Below are positions 54,102-64,000 of a stretch of 64,000 bases of DNA, in pieces. The notes under the pieces were generated by a model. That model made no database searches. It was not told where the DNA came from and saw only the letters and a list, made by a program, of their open reading frames with translations. The position numbers were made by a program, and so were the translations under genes. Source of the stretch: an uncultured Olsenella sp. (GTDB lineage Bacteria > Actinomycetota > Coriobacteriia > Coriobacteriales > Atopobiaceae); the NCBI GenBank assembly GCA_949287905.1, contig CASEHX010000001.1, positions 62,001-126,000 of the forward strand, given 5' to 3'. Position 1 is the first letter of the stretch; the number at the start of each line of letters is the position of its first letter.

Positions 54102-54135
54102 GGGCGACGGCAGTGACTGACGGGTGGGATTCGCG

Positions 54136-55770
54136 ATGATCGACGAGCTGCATGTGCGCGACGTCGCGCTCATCCGCGACGCCACGATCGAGCCCGCGAC
54201 GGGGCTCACCGTTCTCACGGGAGAGACGGGTGCCGGCAAGACGGCGCTGCTCTCCTCGATCAAGCTGCTCGTGGGCGAGCGCTCGGACGCGGGAATGGTC
54301 CGCGAGGGCTCGGCGGCGCTCGAGGTCGAGGGCAGGCTCTTCCTTCGTGGGGATGACGAGGACGGCACGGTGGTGCGTCGGCGCGTGAGCACGGACGGCC
54401 GCGGCCGCGTTGAGCTGAACGGCCATATGGCGAGCGTTCGCGAGCTCGCGGACCGCGTGGGCTCGACGGTCGACCTCTGCGGCCAGCACGAGCACCAGAG
54501 GCTCCTGTCCGTCCAGACTCACGCCGAGATGCTCGACATGTGGGCGGGCGCGCCCGCTGCCGAGGCGCTCGAGGTCTACCGCGACGCGCTCTCCGCCGCC
54601 GGGGAGGCGGCTGCCGAGCTGGAGCGCGTGCGCGAGATGGGCCGTGCCACGGGCGAGAAGCTCGACGAGGCGGCCTTCGTCCTCCGCAGAATCGATGAGG
54701 TGGATCCGCGCGAGGGCGAGCTCGAGGAGCTGGAGGCACAGCTCCCGCGCGTCGAGCACGGAGAGGCCCTCATGTCGGCGGCCCTCGGTGCGCGCGAGCG
54801 TCTTGCCGGAGACGACGGCGCCTGCGACGCGCTCGGTGATGCCGTGCGCTCGCTCGGGGACGCGGCCCGCTTTGACGAGAGGCTCTCCGGCTGGGCGTCC
54901 ACGCTCGAGAGCGCCCTGCTCGACATCGAGGACGTGGCCTCCGAGCTGCGGGGATATGCGGACGAGGTCGACTTTGACCCCGAGGAGCTCGACCGCGTCC
55001 AGACGCGCCTGGCGGCCCTCGAGGGTCTGCGGCGCACGTACGGACCACGCATGGAGGACGTGCTGCGCCGGAGGGAGGAGGCGCGCGAGGTCATTGCCGC
55101 CGCGAACGACGGGGGAGAGCTGGAGCGCCGCGCCGCCGAGGAGGTCGAGCGCCGCGAGGCGGCGTTGGCCGAGGCGGCCGACGCCCTCGACGCCGTGCGC
55201 CGCGAGGCCGCGCCGCGCCTTGCCGCCGCCGTGAGCGAGCAGATGGCGTTTCTCGAGATGGGGAGCGCCGGCCTCGAGGTCTCCATCGATAGGCGCCCGC
55301 GCGCCGAGTGGGGGAGCCGCGGGCCGTCTCGTGTGGAGCTGCTCTATCGCCCCGCCGCCGGGCTCTCCGCCCGCCCCCTGAGAAAGATCGCCTCGGGTGG
55401 CGAGGTCAGCCGCGTGATGCTTGCCGTCAAGGTCGTCCTGGGGGAGTCGGACGCCTGTGAGACGCTCGTCTTTGACGAGGTCGATGCCGGCGTGGGCGGT
55501 GCCACGGCCGTCGCGCTCGCGAGCGTGCTCGCGCGGCTCGCCAAGACGCACCAGGTCATCGTCGTCACGCACCTCGCGCAGGTGGCGGTTGCGGCCGAGC
55601 GTCACTATCTCGTCGAGAAGCGCACGGGGGAGGGCGAGGTCCCCGAGACCACGCTCACCGTGATATCCGGCGAGGAGCGCGTGACCGAGGTGGCGCGCAT
55701 GCTCTCGGGAGACACCGGGGCGGCGAGCCGTGACCTCGCTCGGGAGATGCTCTCCGGGCGCGCCTCGTAG
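54136..55770 (+). CDS. recN: DNA repair protein RecN
   Basis: SMC-like ATPase that helps bring broken DNA ends together for RecA-dependent repair; 544 residues, normal length. Walker A LTGETGAGKTALLSSIKLL is at about 28-46. Two long coiled-coil arms rich in Ala/Glu/Arg follow (about 155-370). The ABC signature SGGEVSRVMLAVK and Walker B LVFDEVDAGVGG are near the C-terminus. ATG 54136 begins MIDELHVRDVALI, the usual RecN start; a GTG four codons upstream is in frame and less likely. The AT-rich gap that follows separates it from the phosphatase-kinase cluster. Confidence 0.96.
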   Translation: MIDELHVRDVALIRDATIEPATGLTVLTGETGAGKTALLSSIKLLVGERSDAGMVREGSAALEVEGRLFLRGDDEDGTVVRRRVSTDGRGRVELNGHMASVRELADRVGSTVDLCGQHEHQRLLSVQTHAEMLDMWAGAPAAEALEVYRDALSAAGEAAAELERVREMGRATGEKLDEAAFVLRRIDEVDPREGELEELEAQLPRVEHGEALMSAALGARERLAGDDGACDALGDAVRSLGDAARFDERLSGWASTLESALLDIEDVASELRGYADEVDFDPEELDRVQTRLAALEGLRRTYGPRMEDVLRRREEAREVIAAANDGGELERRAAEEVERREAALAEAADALDAVRREAAPRLAAAVSEQMAFLEMGSAGLEVSIDRRPRAEWGSRGPSRVELLYRPAAGLSARPLRKIASGGEVSRVMLAVKVVLGESDACETLVFDEVDAGVGGATAVALASVLARLAKTHQVIVVTHLAQVAVAAERHYLVEKRTGEGEVPETTLTVISGEERVTEVARMLSGDTGAASRDLAREMLSGRAS

Positions 55771-56225: not shown

Positions 56226-57059
56226 GTGTTTGGAATTGCCGGCTGCTCAGACGTGGGTGCGCGAAAGACCGTCAATCAGGATGCCTGGTGCGCCCTGTCG
56301 GCGGAGACGAGCGTGGGTGACGTTGCGATGGCCGTCGTGTGCGACGGCGTCGGCGGCCTCACGAGCGGCGAGCTTGCCAGCTCGACGGTCGTCCATGAGT
56401 TCGATCGCTGGTTTCGGAGGGACCTCGCGCCCCTTGCCCTCGCATCCGTGACGAGGGAGGGGGAGATCAGCCTCTCGGACGTCGCTGATGCCTGGGGGCA
56501 CCTGCTCGATGACCTCAATCGCCGCATCGGCGAGTACGGGCGTCGACGGGGAGCCCTCATGGGCACCACCTTCTCCGGCCTGCTCGTCTGTCAGGGTCGC
56601 TTCGTCGTCGGTCATGTGGGGGACAGCCGCGTCTACCGCATCGCCTCAGGGCGTATTGAGCGCCTCACCAACGACCAGACCCTTGCCGCGAGCGCGGTTG
56701 CCAGGGGCATCGTCAGCGCGGAGGATGCGCCGCTCATGCCCCATGGTTCGGCGCTGATCCAGTCCGTGGGCACCCAGGTGGGCCTGCGTCCCGAGTTCAC
56801 CTATGGGGAGGCTCGTGCGGGTGACCTCTTTGTCGCCTGCTCCGACGGCTTCTATCGGCGGCTCGGGGACGAGGGCCTGCGCGACGCCTACGCTCGGGTC
56901 AACATCACCAGCGAGGATGACCTGCTCGCCGTCACCGAGCGCCTCATCGAGCAGGGCGTCGCCGATGGCGAGAGGGACAACCTCACCGCCGTCTGCCTCT
57001 CTGTGACGGAAGCCCGCCCGGTTGCCCCACCCGGAGCTCGAGAAGGAGGCGCCGGATGA
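56226..57059 (+). CDS. PP2C-family Ser/Thr protein phosphatase
   Basis: Metal-dependent phosphatase that removes phosphate from Ser/Thr, presumably reversing the kinase encoded next. 277 residues, single PP2C domain of the PrpC/Stp type. Metal-binding Asp19 is in KTVNQDAWC, Asp40 in VVCDGVGG, then FVVGHVGDSRVYR, LFVACSDGFYR and the final ERDNLTAVCL, all intact. Start is GTG 56226, which reads MFGIAGCSDVGARKT as normal for the family; ribosome site GGAGGGAGGG is upstream. Its TGA overlaps the ATG of the kinase gene, so the pair is translated together. Confidence 0.95.
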   Translation: MFGIAGCSDVGARKTVNQDAWCALSAETSVGDVAMAVVCDGVGGLTSGELASSTVVHEFDRWFRRDLAPLALASVTREGEISLSDVADAWGHLLDDLNRRIGEYGRRRGALMGTTFSGLLVCQGRFVVGHVGDSRVYRIASGRIERLTNDQTLAASAVARGIVSAEDAPLMPHGSALIQSVGTQVGLRPEFTYGEARAGDLFVACSDGFYRRLGDEGLRDAYARVNITSEDDLLAVTERLIEQGVADGERDNLTAVCLSVTEARPVAPPGAREGGAG

Positions 57060-58897
57060 CGCGCGTGGGAGATCGGGTCGACGGAAAGTACGAGATCCTG
57101 AGCCTCATCGGCGAGGGCGGCATGTCTCGCGTGTGGCTCGCCCGCGACCAGCGCCTCAACAAGCTCTGGGCGGTCAAGGAGATAGACCGCGTCGCACGCG
57201 ACGCCAACAACGCCGTGGTGGTGCAGGGCCTCATCGCCGAGGCCAACCTCATGAAGCGGCTCGACCACCCGGCGCTTCCCCGCATCGTGGACATCGTCGA
57301 GGACGAAAAGACCGTCTACGTCGTCATGGACTACGTCGAGGGCAAGTCCCTCAAGGGGGTCATGCGCGATCTCGGACGTCCCATGGACGAGAAGGACGTC
57401 ATCTCGTGGGGGACGCAGCTCTGTGACGTCCTCGAGTACCTGCACACGAGGACCCCACCGGTCATCTACCGCGACATGAAGCCCTCCAACGTCATGCTGC
57501 GCGACGACGGCTCGGTGAAGCTTGTCGACTTCGGCATCGCACGCGAGTACAAGGAAGATCGAAGCTCCGACACACAGATCCTCGGGACCAGGGGGTATGC
57601 CGCCCCCGAGCAGCTCAGTCGCGTCCGCCAGTCCGACGTTCGCACGGACGTCTATGCCCTCGGGGTCACGCTGTGGTCGCTCGTGACGGGGCTCGCCCCC
57701 TCCGAGGTCGACGTGCTCCGACCCATCAGACAGGTTGACCCGGGGCTCTCGGAGGGGCTCGAGCACATCATCAACCGGGCGACGCGCCAGGACCCCGCCG
57801 AGCGCTACCAGTCCTGCGCGGAGATGCGCCATGACCTCATGCGCCACGACCGTCTGACCGAGGGGTACCGGAGCGCCCAGCGAGCGAAGATCCGTCGCTT
57901 CAACGTCGCGCGCGGCCTTGCGATGGGGCTGGCCGCGCTCGGCGTGGCATGCATCGCCCTGGGCGTCCTTCTCAGGGACAGGACCTACGAGAGCCTTCTC
58001 GATGCGGCGCGCACCGCGAGCGCGAGGGAGCTCGGTGGCGCACCGTCGGCCGCGGAACGGGGCTACGTGCTGGCGGCCTCCGTGGACCCGGGCAACGTCA
58101 CCGCCTATCTCGAGCTCGTGGACAACGTCTACAAGGCGGACCAGAACTTCTCGATGGAAGAGGCGGAGCGCCTGGGCTCCCTCATGGGCGAGCGCCTGCG
58201 GGACGTCCAGGGCTCCGAGGGCTACGCCAGGCTCTGCTATGAGATCGGCATTCTCTACTACGTCTACTACGAGCAGGACGAGGGGGAAGAGGAGGGGCGC
58301 ACCTATGCGATGAGCGCGGGCGTGCAGGCGGCGCAGTGGTTCCAGCGTGCCGCGGACCGCTGCGACGAGCTCCTCGCCTCGGGGAGGGACTGCGAGCTCA
58401 CCCCGGCGGAGCGTTCGGCGACGACCGCCTACGTGACCATCGGCCAGTTCTACCGGAGGCTCTCCCAGGCAACGCTCGAGGGCTCCGAGGGCAGCGTCTA
58501 CGAGGGCTACTGGGACTCGCTCGTCTCTGCGTTCGAGTCCGTGGAAGACGATGGCCCGATCATGGTGCGCCTCCGTCTCTTTCGGCTCATCTACGAGGCG
58601 ATCTCCTCACCCACGTATCTCAGCGGATTCCGTCGCGCGGGAGTGACGGAGCGTCAGGCGCTCGAGCTTCTGGAGGGCGTCCTCGCCTCCACCGCGGAGC
58701 TCTCGGGTGACGTTGGGGCTAGCGAGCGATCCCAGGCGATGCACGACGAGATTCTCTCCGGCGTCACCTCGCCGAGCGGGGTCGCCGGGGACGTCTCCGA
58801 GTCGCCGGCGTACCAGAACATCGAGGCGGTCTTCGGTGGAGCGGGGACGAGGGCGGAGTCGGCCCGTGCGACCCGCCCCTCGGGTCCCGAGGGCTAG
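57056..58897 (+). CDS. Transmembrane Ser/Thr protein kinase
   Basis: 613 residues. The N-terminal cytoplasmic kinase domain (about 12-270) has P-loop IGEGGMSRVWLA, catalytic Lys41, YRDMKPSN with Asp140 (Tyr in place of the usual His), DFG at 158-160 and GTRGYAAPEQ. A transmembrane helix follows (about 284-304). Then comes an extracytoplasmic, helical, Ala/Glu-rich region of about 300 residues with repeat-like pairs (YEIGILYYVYYEQDEGEEEG; WFQRAADRCDELLA), reminiscent of TPR-type helices. There are no PASTA domains, so it is not the PknB/PrkC type. It is coupled to the PP2C gene. Ligand and targets are unknown; the giant Ig protein downstream is a candidate partner. Confidence 0.92.
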   Translation: MTRVGDRVDGKYEILSLIGEGGMSRVWLARDQRLNKLWAVKEIDRVARDANNAVVVQGLIAEANLMKRLDHPALPRIVDIVEDEKTVYVVMDYVEGKSLKGVMRDLGRPMDEKDVISWGTQLCDVLEYLHTRTPPVIYRDMKPSNVMLRDDGSVKLVDFGIAREYKEDRSSDTQILGTRGYAAPEQLSRVRQSDVRTDVYALGVTLWSLVTGLAPSEVDVLRPIRQVDPGLSEGLEHIINRATRQDPAERYQSCAEMRHDLMRHDRLTEGYRSAQRAKIRRFNVARGLAMGLAALGVACIALGVLLRDRTYESLLDAARTASARELGGAPSAAERGYVLAASVDPGNVTAYLELVDNVYKADQNFSMEEAERLGSLMGERLRDVQGSEGYARLCYEIGILYYVYYEQDEGEEEGRTYAMSAGVQAAQWFQRAADRCDELLASGRDCELTPAERSATTAYVTIGQFYRRLSQATLEGSEGSVYEGYWDSLVSAFESVEDDGPIMVRLRLFRLIYEAISSPTYLSGFRRAGVTERQALELLEGVLASTAELSGDVGASERSQAMHDEILSGVTSPSGVAGDVSESPAYQNIEAVFGGAGTRAESARATRPSGPEG

Positions 58898-58906
58898 GAG
58901 GGTCGG

Positions 58907-59353
58907 ATGGAGGCTCACGAGGTCCTGCTCGCTGTTGGCGGCGCGCTCATCGCGGCGTCCCTTGTCCTCGCGGGTGTCGCTGCCTGGCTGTATCGCGCCC
59001 TCGACATCAGGGGCGTGCGTGACGATCTCTCGGGACTTGTCCGGGTGCGCGAGATCGCGTCCGCCAGGCGGGAGGACGACCAAGGGTCCGCGGCGCGCGC
59101 CCCTTCGGGGGCGTCGCGGGGCCGTGTCACGCGTGGGGAGCCGCCGCCTGATGCGGCGGGGGACCCAGGTGGTCCCACCACGCAATGGGGCGCGGGAGAG
59201 GGCGCTTCGGGCGGGCTGCGGCGGGGTGCCGGAGACGACGAGGAGACCCTGTTCGATGGCGGGCTCGCCGACGCCTGGCCGTGTGCGCCGCTCGGGTTTC
59301 ATGTGACGAGAGGGGACATGGGGGTCGGGAGCCCCCGGGGGATAGAGGAGTAG
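58907..59353 (+). CDS. Small single-pass membrane protein with disordered tail
   Basis: 148 residues, not recognised. One hydrophobic helix (about residues 6-28, LLAVGGALIAASLVLAGVAA) is followed by a long Gly/Arg/Pro/Asp-rich region. Near the end is DDEETLFDGGLADAWP; a short E-T-(L/T)-L-type acidic motif of this kind is seen in small membrane proteins beside PP2C/kinase/FHA genes of Gram-positives, but the match here is slight. Start ATG 58907 lies nine bases after the kinase stop, with GGAGGGTCGG before it. It belongs to the same operon. A phosphorylation substrate or adaptor is only a guess. Confidence 0.6.
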   Translation: MEAHEVLLAVGGALIAASLVLAGVAAWLYRALDIRGVRDDLSGLVRVREIASARREDDQGSAARAPSGASRGRVTRGEPPPDAAGDPGGPTTQWGAGEGASGGLRRGAGDDEETLFDGGLADAWPCAPLGFHVTRGDMGVGSPRGIEE

Positions 59354-59356
59354 AGC

Positions 59357-62300
59357 ATGAGCTGGACAGGACGAGGCAGCTGCGCCAAGAACACCCCAAG
59401 AGGAAACGGCGGAAAGCGAGGGCTGGCGCTGCTCGCCGGCGTGCTGGCGGCGCTCGTCGCCGCGCTCGCCGCGACCCCCGCTCCCGTCGCACACGCCTCG
59501 GAGCGGCCCACGGTCACCTTTGTGGCCCTGGGCATCCCCGACGCCACCCTGATCGACGGCGAGGACGTCTGGGGCTCTATGGCCAGCTACTGCGTCACGG
59601 TGTCGATGGATGCCGACTACGCCTTGGTCGAGGAGCGCTCGACGATCTTCGACTCGGCGGGGGCCTTGACCCTCGACGAGCATAGGGGATGGGACTCCGC
59701 CCCAGGTCAAGACGGTGGGACCATGCTCTACCAACGGAGCTTCACCATGGGTGCAAGCTATCACAACGAGCTTGGGGTGACCGTCGCCTATCAGCGGAGG
59801 GGCGAGGACGGTTCCCCCGTCGGCGAGGTCCTGACGACCACGCATGCCTATCAAAGGCGCGTCACCGTGGAAACCCGCTCACCCGAGGTGAGTCTCACGA
59901 CGAACGGAGGACGGCCCCAGGGGCACTGCCACCTCAGCGTTGACTCCGTGACCGTCGTGGCGGTCGTCAGCATGCCGTTCTACGAGGACGGCGGGGTGAG
60001 CCTGGACGAGACCTGGAAGGAGCTGAGCCGGGAAGAGGACGAGACGGGAATCGAGACGCGCGCGTTCGCCAAGACCTTCTCGGAAGAAGGTGCCCATGAC
60101 GTGAGGGTGAGCGCCCGGACCCGCTTTGGAAAGGAGGGTGGGGACAGCCTGGGCTTTACCCTCGATCGCACTGCCCCTGAGGTGAGCGTTGCCCTTGGCA
60201 ACGACGACGCTCTCAACGGTGCGTACTATGTCGGCTCGCGTGCCGTGACCATCAGGATTGAGGAGGCGTTGGGCTTCGACCCGGAGAGGGTGAGCGTCCT
60301 GGTCAACGACGAGCCCGTGAGCCTCGACTGGTCCGGCGAGGGGGCCGAGCACACGGCTGAGGTCGTCTTCGAGAAGGACGGCACCCACAGGCTCAGGGTC
60401 TTTTGCTCAGACCTTGCGGGCAACCTGGGCGAAGGCGAGGACCCGTACGAGCTCGTCGTCGACACCACGGACCCGACTCTTATCGTGACCTGCGACAACA
60501 ATGACGCGGGGCGCGAGTCCCACTACAGGGACGGCCGTGCGTTCGCGATCGTCGCGAAGGACGTCAACCTGGATCGAGACTCGCTCTCCGTCGTCAAGGA
60601 CGGTGAGGTCCTCGAAGGCGTTGGCTGGGAGCGGGGAGACGACGGCTCGTACGAGGCGACCGTGGCGTTCGAGACGGACGGCGTCCATTCGCTCTTGGTG
60701 ACGTGCGGGGACCTTGCCGGGAACTTCGCCGCGTATGAGTCCGGCGAGTTCGTCATAGACAGGGTCGCACCCGTCATCGGCGTTTCCTGGGACAGCGGGG
60801 GCGCAGCGGGAGAGGGTGCGTTCTTCAATGCTCCCCGCGTGGCCACGATCGACGTCAGGGATGAGAACTTCGACCCCGACCTCATCACGGTTGACACCAA
60901 CGGGACGGTGGGCGAATGGAGCGACGAGGACCAGAGCCTGAGCGTCGCGTTCGACACGGACGGCGAGTGCCGTCTCGTCGTCTGTGGCAGGGATCCCGCG
61001 GGCAACGAAGCCGACGTCTATGACTCCGGATCCTTTTTCGTCGACATGACGCCACCGGTCCTGAGCGTTGCCTTCTCTGACGGTGACGCGCATGCCAACA
61101 GGGTCGACGGCATTGCCTACTACGCCGACGAGCGCTTCGCAACGATCACGGTGGTCGAGAAGAACTTCGACCCCGGTCGCGTTACCGTTTCCGGCGGGGG
61201 AAGAAGGGGCGAGTGGCAGGACGGCGAGAACGACGCCCACACGCTCGAGGTCACGTTCCCGGAGGCCGTCGCTGCTCATGAGCTGCGGGCCTCCGTTGCC
61301 GACCGCGCCGGCAACGGCGGCGTCGATGCCGAGGGCGCGCCCTTCGAGTACGAGTCCGGTGTCTTCGTCGTGGACGCCACGAGGCCCGAGGTCACGATCG
61401 AGCTCGACAAGCCGCCCGTCCAGACCTTCGACGGCGCCGACTTCTTCGCCGAGGCGCCTGCGGCCACCGTCACGGTGAGGGACGCGCACTTCGACCCCGA
61501 GTCCTCCCTCATCGAGGCCGAGGGCGCGACCTTCGGAGGCTGGGTCGAGGGCGGGTCCGAGGACGGCGTTACCACCTGGACCTCCACGGCCACGTTCGTC
61601 GAGGGGGTCGGGCGCACCCTCGAGGTGACCGCGAGGGACCGGTCAGCCAACCGCACGACCAGGGCATACCAGAACAACGCCGTGACCGGTGGGGCAACGC
61701 TCGTCTCGCCCACGTTCTCCGTGGACCTCACGGCCCCTGTGGTGACGGGCGCCTCCATGAGCAGGCCCCCTTCGAACAGTTACGGCGGAAACCACCTCTT
61801 CTTCGACTCCGACGCCATGATGAGCGTGACGGTCATGGACAACATCGGCCTCGAGTCCTTCCAGGTCGTGAAGGGAGGGGACACGAGCGGCTGCTATGTT
61901 GCCGCCCACCCCGAGACCTCGGTAAACGTCGAAGGGGGCGTCCAGTACAACGTCCTTATCGGCCTCGTCGAGGGTCGCGCCTTCGACAGCGCCATCCGCG
62001 TCTGCGCGAAAGACCATGCGGGCAACAGGCGCTACTGGGACCTCACGCCCCATGGCGAGGAGGTTTACGTGTCTCACGTCGAGGGCGTCTCCAACCCGTC
62101 GGTCTTTGACGGCGTCTATCCCGACTCCCTGCTGCAGGACACGGTCTTCCCCAGGCTCACGCTCACCGGTCCCGCCGCGGGCAGCTACAGCAGCGCGCCC
62201 CAGACCGTCTCCCTGAGCGTCGAGGAGCTGAACGTCCCGATTCTCCAGACCTACGAGCCGGACCAGGCAGTGCTCACGGTGAGGCGGGTGGCAGGCGACG

Positions 62301-63886
62301 CCTCCTCCGCTGCCACCACCTGGAGCCGTTCGGTGAGCCAGCTCGTCCATGCGGACGACATTACCCACATGCTCTCCGAGGTCCTCTCCGCCGACGGACG
62401 CTACACCGTCTCGGCCCAGGTGAGAGATCCCGCCGGTAACCTTGCCACGGCCGAGCTCCCCGAGTTCACGGTCGATCGGACGGCGCCCGTCGTGGAGGTC
62501 GTCTTTGACAACGACGACGTGCGCAACGGCAAGTACTACAAGGCCGCGCGCACCGCCACCATCACCGTGACCGAGCGCAACTTCGACCCGGCCCTCGTGG
62601 CCATCGAGACAAGCGGCAGCGTGGGCGACTGGTCCACGAGCGGTGACGTTCACACCGTCACCGTCTCCTTCTCCACCGACGGCGCGTACGACCTCTCCGT
62701 GAGCGGCACCGACATGGCAGGAAACGTCATGGAAGCGTACCGTGCGGACGAGTTCGTCATCGATCTCCAGGCGCCCGAGATCGCCTTCGACGGCGTCGAG
62801 GGCCAGAGCGCCTACAACGACTCCGTCCGGCCGGTCATCGTCTTCACCGACGAGGCCAACTTCGATGCCGGCGGCATCTCCTACACGATCGAGGGCACCA
62901 AGAACGGCGAGGTCGTCTACGAGACCTTCGTCTCCGATCAGGAGCGGGGCCAGACCGTCACCTATGCCGACTTCGCGCGAGAGCCCGATGTCGACGACAT
63001 CTACACGATCAGCGCCCGCGTGGTCGACCTCGCAGGCAACGAGGCCGAGGAATCGGTCACCTTCTCGGTCAACCGGTTTGGGTCCACCTTCCGTGTGGTG
63101 GACGCCGATTCGTATGCCAGAAACGACGGCTACCTGCTCGAAGGGCGCGAGGTCGTCGTCGAGGAGGTCAACGTGAGCGGCGTCGAGTCCGAGAGGCACG
63201 CCGTGACCGTCACCGAGGGTGCGAGCGTCTTCCAGCTCGCCCTCAACGAGGCCCCACAGCCCACCGGCTACACCATCGAGACCGGTGTGTCCGAGGACTC
63301 CGAGTCCAGCGGCTGGTCCGTCTACACCTATCGCATCCCTGCGGGAAACTTCGTGCGCGACGGACGCTATCACGTCTCCGTCAGGTCCGAGGACCTGGCG
63401 GCCAACATCAACACCAGCTCCAACTACTACGAGCGCGAGGCGGGCGGGACCGCTGCCGCCGAGGTCGACTTCATCCTCGACACCACCGATCCCGTGGTGA
63501 CGAGCCTGAACATCGAGGACGGTGCCGTCTATGAGACCGGTGCCTACGAGGGCGCCTTCACGGTCGTCGAGAACATCGGCGTGCGCGAGGTCGAGGTTCT
63601 CGTTGACGGCGAGGCCGTCGAGGTCATCGACGACGGCTACGGAAACTACCGCTTCAGGATCGAGGCCGCCCCCTTCACGTCGCGCAGCCTCTCCATCACG
63701 GCCACCGACCTCGCCGGCCGCACCGGCAGCGCCGGCGCCGACGACTTCCGCGTCACTGCCGACATCTTCGAGCTGCGGCTGCCGTGGGCCATCGCCGGCA
63801 TCGTCGCCGCTGTGGCCGCCTTCGGATGCCTGGCCTGCCTCTTCGCCATCAGGCGCAAGCGCGACGAGAGGGGTGCCCGTTCGTGA
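59357..63886 (+). CDS. Large surface-exposed protein with about a dozen bacterial Ig-like domains
   Basis: 1509 residues, type I membrane protein. Signal peptide about 1-48 (basic start, then LALLAGVLAALVAALAATPA, cleavage after AHA). Ectodomain of repeated Ig-like modules of about 95-105 residues, joined by linkers of the form (F)xVDxTAPxV. Inside modules recur NDDxxNGxYY, (R)xATITVxExNFDPxxV, DGxYxLxVxGxDxAGNxxxxY; these are best conserved near 60180-61070 and 62470-62770. One C-terminal helix (about 1474-1498, WAIAGIVAAVAAFGCLACLF) and a short basic tail. No LPxTG sorting motif. Last complete gene of the kinase cluster; start ATG 59357 follows GAGGAG, three bases after the previous stop. 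Adhesion or ligand sensing is inferred. Confidence 0.88.
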   Translation: MSWTGRGSCAKNTPRGNGGKRGLALLAGVLAALVAALAATPAPVAHASERPTVTFVALGIPDATLIDGEDVWGSMASYCVTVSMDADYALVEERSTIFDSAGALTLDEHRGWDSAPGQDGGTMLYQRSFTMGASYHNELGVTVAYQRRGEDGSPVGEVLTTTHAYQRRVTVETRSPEVSLTTNGGRPQGHCHLSVDSVTVVAVVSMPFYEDGGVSLDETWKELSREEDETGIETRAFAKTFSEEGAHDVRVSARTRFGKEGGDSLGFTLDRTAPEVSVALGNDDALNGAYYVGSRAVTIRIEEALGFDPERVSVLVNDEPVSLDWSGEGAEHTAEVVFEKDGTHRLRVFCSDLAGNLGEGEDPYELVVDTTDPTLIVTCDNNDAGRESHYRDGRAFAIVAKDVNLDRDSLSVVKDGEVLEGVGWERGDDGSYEATVAFETDGVHSLLVTCGDLAGNFAAYESGEFVIDRVAPVIGVSWDSGGAAGEGAFFNAPRVATIDVRDENFDPDLITVDTNGTVGEWSDEDQSLSVAFDTDGECRLVVCGRDPAGNEADVYDSGSFFVDMTPPVLSVAFSDGDAHANRVDGIAYYADERFATITVVEKNFDPGRVTVSGGGRRGEWQDGENDAHTLEVTFPEAVAAHELRASVADRAGNGGVDAEGAPFEYESGVFVVDATRPEVTIELDKPPVQTFDGADFFAEAPAATVTVRDAHFDPESSLIEAEGATFGGWVEGGSEDGVTTWTSTATFVEGVGRTLEVTARDRSANRTTRAYQNNAVTGGATLVSPTFSVDLTAPVVTGASMSRPPSNSYGGNHLFFDSDAMMSVTVMDNIGLESFQVVKGGDTSGCYVAAHPETSVNVEGGVQYNVLIGLVEGRAFDSAIRVCAKDHAGNRRYWDLTPHGEEVYVSHVEGVSNPSVFDGVYPDSLLQDTVFPRLTLTGPAAGSYSSAPQTVSLSVEELNVPILQTYEPDQAVLTVRRVAGDASSAATTWSRSVSQLVHADDITHMLSEVLSADGRYTVSAQVRDPAGNLATAELPEFTVDRTAPVVEVVFDNDDVRNGKYYKAARTATITVTERNFDPALVAIETSGSVGDWSTSGDVHTVTVSFSTDGAYDLSVSGTDMAGNVMEAYRADEFVIDLQAPEIAFDGVEGQSAYNDSVRPVIVFTDEANFDAGGISYTIEGTKNGEVVYETFVSDQERGQTVTYADFAREPDVDDIYTISARVVDLAGNEAEESVTFSVNRFGSTFRVVDADSYARNDGYLLEGREVVVEEVNVSGVESERHAVTVTEGASVFQLALNEAPQPTGYTIETGVSEDSESSGWSVYTYRIPAGNFVRDGRYHVSVRSEDLAANINTSSNYYEREAGGTAAAEVDFILDTTDPVVTSLNIEDGAVYETGAYEGAFTVVENIGVREVEVLVDGEAVEVIDDGYGNYRFRIEAAPFTSRSLSITATDLAGRTGSAGADDFRVTADIFELRLPWAIAGIVAAVAAFGCLACLFAIRRKRDERGARS

Positions 63887-63975: not shown

Positions 63976-64000
63976 ATGGCCGAGAGGAACACGAGGGGCG
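63976..64000 (+). CDS. Start of the next gene (cut by right edge)
   Basis: ATG 63976 after AGGAAAGGGGCACAC opens a frame reading MAERNTRG at the window edge. Only eight residues are visible; identity cannot be told. A -10-like GAGAATTGC lies about 63942, so it may have its own promoter, 90 bases after the Ig-protein stop. Confidence 0.55.

Follow-up and report, generated by a model that had tools for sequence, protein, structure and literature searches.

A phosphatase, kinase and Ig-protein gene unit of an uncultured Olsenella sp. is related to parts of type VII secretion loci and stands apart from secretion genes

We describe a four-gene unit of an uncultured Olsenella sp. (Atopobiaceae, Coriobacteriales), found in a stretch of 64,000 nucleotides (the window; GenBank assembly GCA_949287905.1, contig CASEHX010000001.1, positions 62,001 to 126,000, or G000:C1:62001-126000 in our numbering, G000 being the window's genome). 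It encodes a PP2C-type phosphatase, a membrane Ser/Thr kinase, a small single-pass membrane protein and a giant immunoglobulin (Ig)-like surface protein. On balance, we favor the view that this is an orphan membrane-signaling module, consisting of D, H and I components and an F-like phosphatase that in other genomes belong to the type VII secretion systems (T7SS) named T7SSd and T7SSe, and that it works in trans-envelope phospho-signaling. The best reading of its distribution is that the module is separable, being joined to a T7SS in some genomes, free-standing in others and pared down in the window. The parts themselves are known from T7SSd and T7SSe, and it is the orphan arrangement that is new.

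The four-gene unit

All four open reading frames (ORFs) are on the plus strand. Verification of the ORFs and of their junctions (-4, +9 and +3 bases) bears out the linked phosphatase-kinase-small membrane protein-giant Ig unit that an earlier note on this DNA had proposed. The phosphatase (56226..57059, +; 277 residues, GTG start) is TseF-like and matches PP2C_2 of Pfam at 1.6e-12; its match to the Stp1/IreP family (8e-39) is under that family's cut-off. It has the motifs NQD, DGVGG, GDSR, SDG and DN, which we take to be the acidic motifs of PP2C enzymes. It lacks the TTLL-bearing C-terminal tail that is present in the orthologues of both sister species.

The TsdD-like kinase (57056-58897, +; 613 residues; Pkinase 9.1e-48, Pfam) has its catalytic domain in residues 1-270 (57056..57865, +). 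The catalytic residues are intact, including the lysine (AVKE), the YRDMKPSN loop and DFG. Hydropathy gives a sole membrane segment, residues 282-300 (57899..57955, +), followed by an extracytoplasmic helical domain (57956..58897, +) that was characterized by profile searches, a structure model and fold comparison. The model is all-helical (mean predicted local distance difference test score, pLDDT, 89.6). A PDB profile search gave 47 matches, mostly to TPR and designed helical proteins. The fold is TPR-like at most, since the best VIA Z score, 9.9, is reachable by chance for helical proteins, and Foldseek returned nothing at E <= 0.001. The earlier note had called this sensor helical and unlike PASTA, and both points hold: no PASTA repeat is matched by Pfam, and NCBIfam PknB_PASTA_kin scores 217.9 bits with a cut-off of 450, which speaks against a PASTA kinase of the PknB/PrkC/Stk1 type. 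EssB/YukC, the cytosolic pseudokinase of T7SSb, was considered for its shared topology and rejected because the catalytic Lys, Asp and DFG are present; no EssB-labelled entry is found among the 47 PDB matches of the ectodomain.

The small TsdH-like protein (58907..59353, +; 148 residues) has an N-terminal membrane helix, a conserved juxtamembrane DIRGVRDDLSG and a tail that is predicted from charge to be cytosolic. It matches no Pfam family, and a codon-based gene caller found the other three genes and missed this ORF. It is backed by homologues directly 3' of the kinase in all 41 kinase loci described below, by a search with a profile that was built from 34 of them and that also recovers the remaining seven, at 8e-7 or lower. 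Thr114 (59246..59248, +), in DDEETLFD, is its single acidic-Thr-x-hydrophobic motif and a candidate site of phosphorylation and FHA docking. The TsdI-like protein (59357..63886, +; 1509 residues; Big_13 7.3e-24 and Big_3_3, Pfam) consists of an N-terminal signal region, about 10-12 Ig-like repeats, a C-terminal membrane helix (1470-1489) and a short basic cytosolic tail. By hydropathy, on which the signal peptide call depends, the small protein has a single membrane segment, and the Ig protein has two, namely the signal region and 1470-1489.

To the left of the unit lies recN (54124..55770, +). To the right, a TIGR02452 gene (3.2e-45; microbial PARG domain 6.8e-18) starts at 63976..64000 (+) and extends beyond the window edge, where pyrG follows (CTP_synth_N 9.9e-123). 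Next come, as judged by eye, xerD, mraZ and the beginning of the division cluster. These boundaries close the unit at four genes. The earlier note had suggested extending to the right for FHA, vWA, EssC or YukD genes, and the stretch that reads past the edge (L003) has none of these before pyrG. A promoter and terminator scan of L003 (600-10200) gave two promoter-like sites, where 0.6 were expected; one falls within the Ig gene and the other is on the minus strand, so that neither is informative, and terminators were at chance level.

Two sister species share these genes, their order and their chromosomal site, so the association of the four genes is more than chance. Among 31 genomes of the genus, all with a recN match (weak only in G093), the unit lies between recN and TIGR02452 only in G000, G103 and G109. 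An empty site, with recN followed by TIGR02452 or pyrG within 1.5 kb, is seen in 26 of the 28 other members, G093 and G106 being the two that could not be judged. The unit is thus an optional cassette. Divergence from the sister locus L061 was estimated as non-synonymous over synonymous change (dN/dS) by the NG86 method, which is rough in GC-rich genomes, and is 0.211/0.636 for PP2C, 0.158/0.472 for the kinase, 0.40/0.836 for the small protein and 0.305/0.673 for the Ig protein, with 0.054/0.581 for recN. For all four genes dN is lower than dS (ratio 0.33-0.48). Together with the open frames and intact kinase motifs, this indicates that the unit is constrained, less so than recN.

Relation to type VII secretion loci

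T7SSd, as described in the available text of Garrett, Higginson and Palmer 2024 (PMC11217815), has the parts TsdA, C, D, H and I. There, TsdD is a membrane kinase with a helical ectodomain, TsdH a single-transmembrane (TM) protein with a short cytosolic tail, and TsdI a 1654-residue Ig protein with a Sec signal and a C-terminal TM segment, proposed to span the envelope like EsaA. The window unit has the same order of D, H and I, adjacent to one another: a one-TM kinase whose helical ectodomain is homologous to those in EssC loci, a small single-TM protein with a cytosolic tail that is matched to TsdH by description, and a Sec-exported Ig protein of more than 1000 residues with a C-terminal TM segment. 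It differs from T7SSd in that its genome has neither TsdC, the EssC-type ATPase with an N-terminal FHA domain, nor TsdA, a WXG100 protein, and in that it adds a PP2C gene and sits between recN and TIGR02452. With T7SSe of Bacillota it shares a phosphatase F, matched to TseF by description, beside D, H and I, and the FHA-bearing J type occurs in relatives of the window. Unlike T7SSe, it belongs to an actinomycetote and is without A, A2, B, C and J: neither the TseC ATPase nor WXG100 is found in G000, no FHA gene of the TseJ kind is in the unit, and TseB and TseK are absent from the four genes, the rest of the genome not having been searched for these two.

We searched relatives with the kinase ectodomain, including its TM segment, as the query. 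Within the family, 38 of 140 genomes have it, spread over 9 of 35 genera; across the order, an alignment search found it in 61 of 395. The neighborhood survey that the earlier note had advised covers 41 loci, which are the window and 40 of 43 other places in the family (G071, G069:C204 and G070:C59 were left out). The Ig protein cluster is found in 39 of these loci. It is missing in the other two: L064 lies on a contig of 3.8 kb, and in L067 a protein with trypsin, TM and FHA parts directly follows the small protein in place of the Ig protein. A PP2C gene lies within 6 kb of the kinase in 25 loci. Many kinase loci continue with a WXG100 protein (PF06013 1.9e-19; TIGR03930 4e-20) and carry a 1500-residue EssC with an N-terminal FHA domain (examples score 706 and 671 bits with TIGR03928, both under its 778-bit cut-off), and others are orphan. 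In L048 (G107, of the window's genus), D, H, I, WXG100 and EssC stand in a row.

In G000 itself, the best TIGR03928 match is FtsK-like (113.6 bits), and no WXG100 match is found at E <= 0.001. TIGR03928 exceeds 500 bits in 33 of the 140 family genomes. Of the 38 that bear the kinase, 26 have such an EssC and 12 do not; in nine of these (G000, G103, G109, G058, G048, G050, G123, G136 and G138) the unit is inside a contig, and in G124, G125 and G127 it is at a contig end, where the absence of EssC is less sure. The kinase is associated with EssC (26/33 versus 12/104, Fisher p 7e-13, kinship uncorrected) in a test that omits three genomes with partial EssC; counting them as EssC-less gives p 4e-13. 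Seven EssC genomes are without a kinase ectodomain match, among them G121, which the alignment search matched weakly. Outside the family, the order has 22 genomes with the kinase, of which 19 carry EssC and G235, G355 and G379 do not; order-wide, 15 of 61 kinase-bearing genomes are EssC-less. The earlier note knew of no such gene set. This no longer stands, since D-H-I is the core of the published T7SSd (PMC11217815, available text), and the components, though not the window locus, which has no EssC or WXG100, thus belong to a known type VII locus.

A maximum-likelihood tree was built from 38 kinases and two outgroups, leaving out three truncated kinases; five sequences that were unclear or lay at contig ends were set aside in the orphan labelling. 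The window, L061, L062 and L063 form an orphan-only clade (support 100/99), the L063 unit being from another genus (G058) and another chromosomal site. The orphan label forces at least four changes on starred branches and takes six on the best tree. On this tree, the link to a T7SS would have been gained or lost at least four times, with no direction assigned because the outgroups are very long branches.

Genes beside the orphan units, such as alaS-like and sigma-factor-like genes identified by eye, were considered as unit members and rejected, as they look like housekeeping genes. As a separate observation, L072 (G062:C78) is possibly a broken T7SS locus. Genes facing the minus strand interrupt its kinase-H-Ig-PP2C unit, next to which lies an EssC-like FHA fragment of about 450 residues; perhaps the loss of secretion is caught midway here.

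FHA proteins and acidic-threonine motifs

At orphan units, an FHA protein often occupies the place that WXG100 and EssC hold in T7SS loci. In both sister species a fifth gene, after the Ig gene, encodes an FHA protein (PF00498 2e-11 in L061; L062 likewise). L069 has an FHA protein too, its genome G128 carrying EssC elsewhere, and L077 has one that is DUF6382-like. In other families, L113 has the order PP2C, kinase, H, Ig (2021 residues) and trypsin/TM/FHA in a genome that is 99% complete and without EssC, and L114 has kinase, H, Ig and FHA. No FHA ORF is found in the stretch examined at the window, L063, L065, L071 or L078, the stretch at L078 ending inside a DUF6382-like gene at a contig end. 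Elsewhere in G000 there are four FHA domains: two adjoin a second kinase locus, and proteins of 144 and 174 residues have one each. That second locus (L040, G000:C27:36000-54000) contains two kinase genes, two FHA genes and a phosphatase and resembles the usual cell-wall PknB locus.

FHA domains bind phosphothreonine. The tails of the H proteins are of low complexity and rich in [DE]x(1,2)Tx[LIVMF], with 89 motifs in 34 tails compared with 19.2 (sd 4.2) after shuffling, a count that none of 1000 shuffles reached; the tail finder missed 7 of the 41 tails. The enrichment is retained in 29 dissimilar tails (73 versus 16.0) and in 24 held-out tails other than those of the first sighting (55 versus 13.3). 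When Thr in the pattern is replaced, no enrichment is seen with Ser (9 versus 17.0), Ala (15 versus 30.2), Gly (20 versus 22.5) or Val (10 versus 17.0), and the reversed pattern is slightly enriched (26 versus 17.9; 35 of 1000 shuffles). Some phosphatase tails carry arrays as well: DLPTMVE four times in L041 and L079, a related motif six times in L072, and TTLL three times in L061 and L062; many others have no motif. In the window, the phosphatase tail is short and without a motif. L063 has neither FHA nor motif. Separately, the PP2C proteins of L044, L056 and L080 each have 11 DLPTMVE-type repeats in a C-terminal array, which may serve as a multivalent platform for FHA.

The sequence pattern suggests that the acidic-Thr motifs are docking sites for FHA domains, written by the kinase and erased by the phosphatase. 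In the available text of PMC11217815, the phosphothreonine-binding residues are kept in the FHA domains of TsdC and TseC. We also considered whether the number of motifs strictly follows the occurrence of FHA from one locus to the next, and rejected this because of the exceptions L066, L074, L080 and L043/L064 described below.

In three families, genomes with EssC-free kinase units have, next to the unit, a trypsin-like protease that a membrane helix joins to a cytosolic FHA domain (L067:6686-8914; L113:3707-5476, minus strand; L115:6784-8439, minus strand). The L115 fusion was recognized by an FHA profile scan only and is otherwise alike by eye.

Discussion

We propose the following mechanism for the module. 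The TPR-like ectodomain of the kinase, perhaps with the envelope-spanning Ig protein, would sense an outside or cell-wall cue. The kinase would act on the small protein's cytosolic tail, phosphorylating threonines of which one (Thr114) is left in the window, and possibly on the phosphatase tail. An FHA protein would dock on the phosphothreonine, and the phosphatase would reset it. In genomes with a T7SS, the docking domain is probably the FHA of EssC and of the J-type protein; in the sister orphan units it would be that of the separate FHA protein. In the window, another FHA protein of the genome may act in trans, or the output may have been lost. A comparable logic is known from the Agrobacterium type VI secretion system, where PpkA phosphorylates TssL at Thr14 and Fha binds TssL (PMC3953482, available text). 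There too, a membrane kinase and an FHA reader act on a threonine of a membrane protein. This is an analogy of working in a different secretion system and different hosts, and we claim homology for generic domains only.

Several points weigh against our interpretation. With no FHA gene and a single motif in the window unit, the operon offers no known partner for the docking step. The outside-in signaling system that the earlier note had called complete is plausible as phospho-signaling and doubtful in its completeness, as the FHA gene of both sisters is missing. The motif was seen before it was tested. L066 and L074 have FHA-bearing genes and no motif, L080 has no motif in H and 11 in PP2C, and L043/L064 have motifs and no FHA on the stretch examined. 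The unit diverges faster than recN, and its EssC-less state could mean recent decay. Finally, the G000 assembly is 91% complete, and the sister genomes 76% and 87%.

These points bear on the other explanations. The unit could be a decaying remnant, in a lineage that has lost the ATPase, WXG100 and, in the window, the FHA gene from a full T7SSd/e-type system, with the four remaining genes on their way out. The FHA gene and phosphatase-tail motifs of both sisters that the window lacks, the single motif in its H protein and the fast evolution of PP2C, kinase, H and Ig fit such a history. We nevertheless consider it rather unlikely, as the four frames and the kinase motifs are intact, dN/dS is well below one against L061, the entire window clade is orphan, including L063 in its other genus and site, and the orphan state recurs on the tree. 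Far less credible is that the unit belongs to an ordinary T7SSd split over two sites, the secretion partner being missing from the draft assembly. The incomplete G000 assembly and the draft state of its relatives leave room for this, yet G000, G103 and G109 have no EssC above the FtsK level and no WXG100. EssC is also absent from G048, G050, G058 and G235, which are 96-99% complete (WXG100 was not searched in G235, and that of G058 is one sub-threshold match, in a 753-residue frame). Moreover, T7SS loci have their secretion genes directly beside the unit, and incompleteness alone would conceal EssC in each of the four window-clade genomes with a probability of about 1e-4, assuming independence.

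A surface-display or host-sensing operon like the bifidobacterial PFNA operon, with its Pkb2 kinase, is another explanation, in which the Ig protein would be a kinase-regulated adhesin or receptor. In the available text of PMC8430577, PFNA operons of Bifidobacterium combine a membrane kinase and an Ig/FN3-type surface protein, followed by AAA ATPase, DUF58 and transglutaminase genes and in some species joined by a phosphatase and FHA too, in the absence of a secretion ATPase or other secretion genes. The likeness is one of gene content, and the window locus differs in having no AAA ATPase, DUF58 or transglutaminase gene, there being no further gene besides the unit between recN and TIGR02452/pyrG. 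Homology of the kinase ectodomain, H and Ig points instead to T7SS loci. The FN3 protein of PFNA is also smaller than the window Ig protein. We consider this explanation improbable; in the purpose that it gives to the unit, it is compatible with the orphan signaling module that we favor.

The T7SSd and T7SSe loci were defined by a search outwards from EssC, according to the available text of PMC11217815, and EssC-less units were therefore invisible to that survey. In the orphan units, the kinase, small protein and Ig protein are kept without the secretion machine, which argues against a pure conduit role of the Ig protein and for signaling; if these units work, TsdI cannot be a conduit only. 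The motif arrays give the small protein and the phosphatase tail a concrete candidate job, which is phospho-dependent FHA docking. They also offer a route to ask whether threonine phosphorylation acts as a switch of these T7SS, which the available text of PMC11217815 raises as a possibility and does not test. We found no report of orphan units or motif arrays in the open-access literature, a scope that does not take in subscription papers, preprints and the supplements of PMC11217815.

More tentatively, D, F, H and I may form a trans-envelope receptor that is autonomous and has been borrowed by secretion systems. In this view, the kinase would write and the phosphatase erase phosphothreonines on the motif arrays of the small protein and the phosphatase, into which interchangeable FHA outputs would plug: a secretion ATPase, a small FHA protein or a surface protease with a cytosolic FHA tail. 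If this is true, T7SSd is one output of a general signaling chassis, and TsdI is a sensor or stalk and not a secretion conduit.

Other observations at related loci

Proteins with DUF6382 and FHA domains (TseJ-type) are present in loci of Actinomycetota (L053:3640-4797, L077:12085-13314 and L050:15062-16444), DUF6382 being just over the Pfam cut-off in L053 and under it in L077 and L050. With TseJ-type proteins and PP2C genes beside many kinases of Actinomycetota, the split of T7SSd and T7SSe by phylum looks blurred. A protein of about 92 residues beside T7SSd-type loci (L050:16452-16733, minus strand; L053:3352-3633; L054, L068, L070 and L076) is modelled as ubiquitin-like (pLDDT 91.8 in L053). 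Its top Foldseek match is the ubiquitin-like domain of EccD5 of ESX-5 (E 2.7e-5), with a VIA Z score of 10.7, a value that unrelated ubiquitin folds equal, and Pfam YukD gives 0.056 in one of four such proteins scanned. No ubiquitin-like protein is reported at any T7SSd locus in the available text of PMC11217815. Candidate T7SS substrates beside T7SSd-type loci (L053:1122-2678; L049:15304-16857, minus strand; L066:432-1937, minus strand) comprise an Mbeg1-like, lipase-type protein (PF11187 2.9e-17, L053) and an unclassified family of about 500 residues.

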